Below, one piece after another: positions 32,660-32,740 of a stretch of 64,000 bases of DNA (the stretch's first letter is position 1; every line of letters starts with the position of its first letter). This DNA is from Halobellus inordinatus (lineage in GTDB: Archaea; Halobacteriota; Halobacteria; Halobacteriales; Haloferacaceae), in contig NZ_JANHAV010000006.1 of assembly GCF_024464655.1 (NCBI RefSeq), positions 124,001 to 188,000 of the forward strand. The letters run 5' to 3'. The position numbers were made by a program, and so were the translations under genes. The notes under the pieces were generated by a model. It was not told the DNA's origin. It searched no databases and was given only the letters and a program-made list of their open reading frames with translations.

Positions 32660-32740
32660 ATACTGTCGGACAGAACTGTGTGAAGAGTATCGGCACCCCG
32701 TGGGTGCCAACACAGTTCACGAACTGCTGTCCGACAGTAT
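32660..32740. mobile_element. 81-bp inverted-repeat element, family A copy 1 (MITE-like)
   Basis: The element has perfect 14-bp ends, ATACTGTCGGACAG and its complement. Imperfect inner arms close on a small hairpin (GGCACCC, CGT, GGGTGCC). A second 81-bp copy lies at 60572-60652 in the opposite orientation. It sits in the divergent promoter interval between gyrB and the ferredoxin gene. No open frame and no clear target-site duplication are visible, so it is a non-autonomous element or a conserved intergenic palindrome. Confidence 0.8.

Follow-up and report, generated by a model that had tools for sequence, protein, structure and literature searches.

A 79-bp palindromic repeat of Halobellus inordinatus with the features of a non-autonomous mobile DNA element

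The window, meaning the whole stretch of 64,000 nucleotides of Halobellus inordinatus DNA that was analysed, carries two palindromes that the original prediction had described as an 81-bp element with perfect 14-bp ends, present in opposite orientation. Both palindromes are present, with identical 14-bp arms, and their opposite orientation was confirmed. The gene contexts are also as claimed: copy 1 lies between the divergent genes for GyrB and a 4Fe-4S ferredoxin, and copy 2 between the convergent genes for MsrB (SelR) and a universal stress protein (Usp). The extent, however, needs correction. Although the 14-bp arms exist, their outermost A and T are part of a 3-bp target duplication, and therefore the unit is 79 bp long with 13-bp inverted ends. 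The predicted folds of both copies are far more stable than those of shuffled sequences (DNA z about -6 to -7). A copy of a sister family lies in the same window.

32658..32660, no strand: left target duplication of copy 1, TGA
32661..32739, minus strand: element copy 1, 79 bp, 13-bp ends TACTGTCGGACAG / CTGTCCGACAGTA, flanked by the divergent gyrB and ferredoxin genes
32740..32742, no strand: right target duplication of copy 1, TGA
60570..60572, no strand: left target duplication of copy 2, CCA, differing from TCA by one base
60573..60651, plus strand: element copy 2, 79 bp, flanked by the convergent msrB and Usp genes
60652..60654, no strand: right target duplication of copy 2, TCA, which is the stop codon of the Usp gene (TGA, minus strand)
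62850..62927, plus strand: sister-family copy, 78 bp, ends TAGGGATTATCGTA with 2 mismatches in the right end, TGA at 62847-62849 and 62928-62930

Copies in the Halobellus genome and their empty sites

The genome-wide search for end pairs suggested by the original prediction revealed dozens of dispersed copies. In the 3.41 Mb Halobellus genome (G000), 35 exact matches to the paired-end pattern were found, compared with 0 for a reversed-pattern control. Allowing a few end mismatches, at least 48 near-complete copies are spread over many contigs. These 48 copies have a mean pairwise identity of 88% and no two are identical. The element is non-coding, its length ranges from 77 to 79 bp among copies, and the 13-bp terminal inverted repeats (TIRs) are perfect in most of them. 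Two copies seemed to fall within long ORFs, but these ORFs match nothing in Pfam and are likely to be spurious.

The consensus layout with flanks is C[TNA]-TACTGTCGGACAG...CTGTCCGACAGTA-[TNA]G. The same TNA triplet is found on both sides of 44 of the 48 copies (TGA 21, TCA 18, TAA 3, TTA 2), and identical 4-mer flanks in none of them. With a C at position -4 in 33/48 copies and a G at +4 in 24/48, the favoured insertion target is CTNAG. The sites that were read are mostly intergenic DNA or stop codons, and convergent gene pairs (16) outnumber divergent ones (7). At 13 of the 48 sites the copy lies at a stop codon, which the duplication regenerates. A special enrichment at stop codons was considered and rejected: among the non-coding and stop positions of the window, stop codons account for 14% of TNA and 27% of CTNAG sites, and the CTNAG preference combined with gene avoidance predicts a number close to the 13 cases, which suffices as an explanation. 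The coincidence of TNA with the stop codons TGA and TAA, which are restored upon insertion, may be a simple reason why insertions are tolerated.

Empty sites in close relatives, which the original prediction had proposed to look for, were found at both window sites and elsewhere. The gyrB/ferredoxin site and the msrB/usp site are each empty in 11 Halobellus relatives. At the former, conserved blocks are kept on both sides, and in G096, which is among the closest relatives, the stretch between them is shorter by 82, that is 79 + 3. Queries of joined flanks covered 12 further sites and gave gap-free junction alignments for locus L105 in G087 and locus L100 in G096; in G089 and G088 the alignments were nearly gap-free. 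At L105, the relative has a single TGA where the Halobellus genome reads TGA-element-TGA. At L100, two of three relatives have a single TGA, and G096 reads TAA there. Both insertions split and then restored a stop codon. Since the empty-site alignments are gap-free at two sites, insertion is demonstrated by comparison.

Distribution, related families and variation of the ends

H. clavatus and a scattering of Natrialbaceae also carry the exact form. Class-wide relatives share the TNA duplication, the outer end pair TACTGTCGG...CCGACAGTA and a length of about 78 bp. TACTGTCGG is kept at both ends in 55 of 391 Halobacteria genomes, covering 23 of 86 genera and at least six families, a patchy spread over families. 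The collected elements are mostly 77-79 bp long, and 130/168 have identical TNA flanks. The genome G094 has undergone a recent burst and holds about 58 near-identical copies, 25 of which were sampled with a mean identity of 97%. Complete copies are carried by Haloarcula and Haloplanus plasmids. Haloarchaeal plasmid matches had been considered as insertion sequences, and those read proved to be complete short elements. No element copies were found in the IMG/VR search or in phage records, and a Corallococcus match (L064), whose layout is not that of the family, was put down to chance. Longer forms of about 98-109 bp were observed in Natrialbaceae and one genus of another family (L063, L055, L295-L298, L338, L339), and lengths across forms may be stepped. 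A haloarchaeal metagenome-assembled genome contains an element (L052:3868-3946) with the ends TACCATCGGACAG / CTGTCCGATGGTA, which differ from the usual form by the same two changes at both ends.

The sister family differs from the main one in its ends and shares the layout, a similar interior and the 3-bp duplication. Its copy in the window sits at the stop codon of a spermidine-synthase-like gene, and ten further copies were found in loci of the same genome besides the window copy. Identical 3-bp flanks occur in 9 of 11 copies, one of them being GTA. In IMG/VR, 19 matches to the sister-family end were judged to be chance. Other mobile elements are inserted in copies at L075 and L087, and at L242 and L244 of G091. 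The insert at L087:1530-1610 is a third palindromic element of about 80 bp with ends TAGTAGCGTTTGCAA that interrupts a main-family copy. The G091 inserts are larger (L244:299-790 and L242:273-598); that in L244 has a short ORF, and its ends GGGTGTCATAGAA resemble those of the PF01609 insertion sequence found at locus L158 of the Halobellus genome. An oxidoreductase gene is bracketed by elements at L114:1471-2334 in the Halobellus genome and at L226:291-1943 in G091, with an FAD-binding domain in one and an NAD-binding domain in the other.

Because the ends served as the search key, their conservation is partly ascertained. The 5 bp following TACTGTCGG vary between genomes (ACAGA, CTATA, CTGTA, ACACA, ACGTA), with both ends changing in step, and when the two ends of an element are compared, this inner block matches perfectly in 97/168 elements and differs by one base in 57/168. 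Flanked by hypervariable neighbours, positions 19-24, with GTGAA among them, show little variation. Since they lie outside the search key, this low variation marks them as a possible second contact point of the mobiliser. The end core of the ACAG family, CTGTC-S-GACAG, forms a palindrome of its own. For this reason the ends are also direct repeats, which could collapse by deletion. Collapsed 15-bp solo ends are present in the Halobellus genome (L076:1502-1516) and in G170 (L203:392-406, with the duplication intact). At L362:239-262, a copy is cut down to a 24-bp remnant that keeps the 3-bp duplication on both sides.

Between genomes, the central stem and columns 10-13 have changed on both sides. 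Within the Halobellus genome, in contrast, 13 TIR changes are one-sided and 0 two-sided, and in the central stem 26 are one-sided and 1 is two-sided. This difference suggests that symmetry is restored while a lineage is active and is lost by decay once a copy has inserted, without maintenance at the individual site. It also bears on the possibility that the palindrome is a functional RNA hairpin, terminator or protein-binding site, conserved and placed by selection at certain genes. The strong fold, the surplus of convergent gene pairs and the both-sided changes between genomes would agree with such a role. Nevertheless, we regard it as highly improbable: one-sided changes within a genome combined with two-sided changes between genomes fit a mobile element and argue against conservation as an RNA or a protein-binding site, the genes adjoining the copies are unrelated, and a search of Rfam gave no match. 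The 3-bp duplications and the empty window sites speak against it as well. The element is not found at orthologous positions, and its arms change on one side only within the genome, which is the opposite of what the original prediction had named as its refutation.

Mobilisation and the search for its driver

The original prediction had seen no transposase with these ends in the window, and the search for the driver did not find one either. PF01609 transposase loci were fetched from G000, G091, G094, G086 and G170, and in none of these five genomes did such a locus have TACTGTCGG ends. In G094, 100 of 103 exact ends were listed and none of them bracket a transposase gene. Most of the listed ends pair as units of about 80 bp; reading of unpaired ends placed them on copies that have decayed. 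Genes between close element pairs were considered as drivers and are ordinary genes, none of them a transposase. In both G170 and G091, ends paired over a long distance proved to belong to separate short elements, and no transposase-like family recurs among the genes beside copies.

The reading as a short non-autonomous mobile element is supported by the dozens of copies, the duplications, the empty sites and the patchy spread. Very probably, this is a 79-bp DNA element moved in trans by a transposase. Its insertion into TNA, best within CTNAG, with 3 bp duplicated, and its absence from orthologous sites of relatives are shown by the data. The enzyme is presumed to be of the DDE type, which established knowledge suggests from the fixed 3-bp duplication alone. 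It would recognise the 13-14 bp ends, possibly together with the subterminal GTGAA block, and make a 3-bp staggered cut. Inserted copies would afterwards decay free of constraint. In an active lineage, both ends would change together, leading to new specificities and to sister families with different ends and a common length, target and interior layout. In the genomes tested, the gene for the mobiliser would be on no element with these ends, either having been lost or not being bracketed by them. A length held constant at 77-79 bp, together with an interior layout common to several families, is not typical of MITEs that arose by deletion and weighs against this reading, as does the failure to find an autonomous partner.

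The origin of such an element can be seen in different ways. It could be a classic MITE, derived by deletion from an IS5/IS1031-like insertion sequence no longer present in the sampled genomes, a proposal that we consider quite possible while leaning slightly against it. The IS1031 group produces a 3-bp target duplication of TNA, as observed here, and IS5 ends begin with GG or GA, whereas the present element starts with TAC. This link is a lead only, drawn from the TNA targets of that group, and none of the PF01609 loci has the ends in question. A precedent exists in Haloquadratum, where MITEs move although the matching transposase has no functional copy (PMC3119063). Alternatively, the element could be an archaeal counterpart of REP/REPIN repeats, served by a domesticated enzyme that stands alone, without these ends on either side, and possibly requires the hairpin form. 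The recent burst in G094 without an end-bearing transposon among the listed ends, and the length and central palindrome retained across families, point in this direction. To our knowledge, however, the Y1 enzymes of RAYT and IS200/IS605 do not leave a 3-bp target duplication, and no candidate gene was seen beside the copies, so that this counterpart seems unlikely. A broader version would be a class-wide superfamily of hairpins of about 78 bp, with a fixed length, TNA target and interior layout but symmetrical replacement of the ends, mobilised by a stand-alone transposase located outside all elements with these ends, making it a DDE-type analogue of REP/RAYT in archaea; this is likewise a rather doubtful proposal.

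Comparison with known systems

The mobile-element reading provides a repeat with a defined boundary, target and scar, present in about one in seven of the sampled haloarchaeal genomes. The question of what moves very small haloarchaeal repeats, raised for the small mobile repeats (SMRs) of Haloquadratum (PMC3119063), thereby becomes testable. Genetic work on G094 should be able to reveal the mobiliser, given the recent burst in that genome. Full-text literature searches found no description of the Halobellus 79-bp element.

In every respect tested but one the element works like a MITE, the exception being the autonomous partner that should have the same ends. It is short and non-coding, with inverted ends, a target duplication, many copies and empty sites. 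It differs in that no end-sharing autonomous element was found, in its size of only 79 bp and in the class-wide conservation of length and layout. SMR-A and SMR-B of Haloquadratum walsbyi are 80-110 bp long and occur in tens of copies, and their mobiliser is open (PMC3119063). They share with the Halobellus element the size class, the tens of copies and prominent inverted ends unrelated to known transposons. However, SMRs are reported to lack a target duplication, and SMR-A is reported to target near-terminal palindromes of PATE/IS605 elements (PMC3119063), unlike the TNA duplication in 44/48 copies and the mostly intergenic or stop-codon sites described here. By their published description, SMRs are therefore set apart. 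PATEs and other IS200/IS605 derivatives are likewise short, palindromic and mobile in haloarchaea, and the collapse of repeated ends is seen here too, but PATEs have neither terminal inverted repeats nor target duplications, both of which the Halobellus element possesses. REP/REPIN sequences with their RAYTs are similar as short palindromic intergenic repeats with an apparently separate driver. They differ from the Halobellus element, which duplicates its target. Among the genes beside its copies, no transposase-like gene recurs that could be a linked Y1-type gene.
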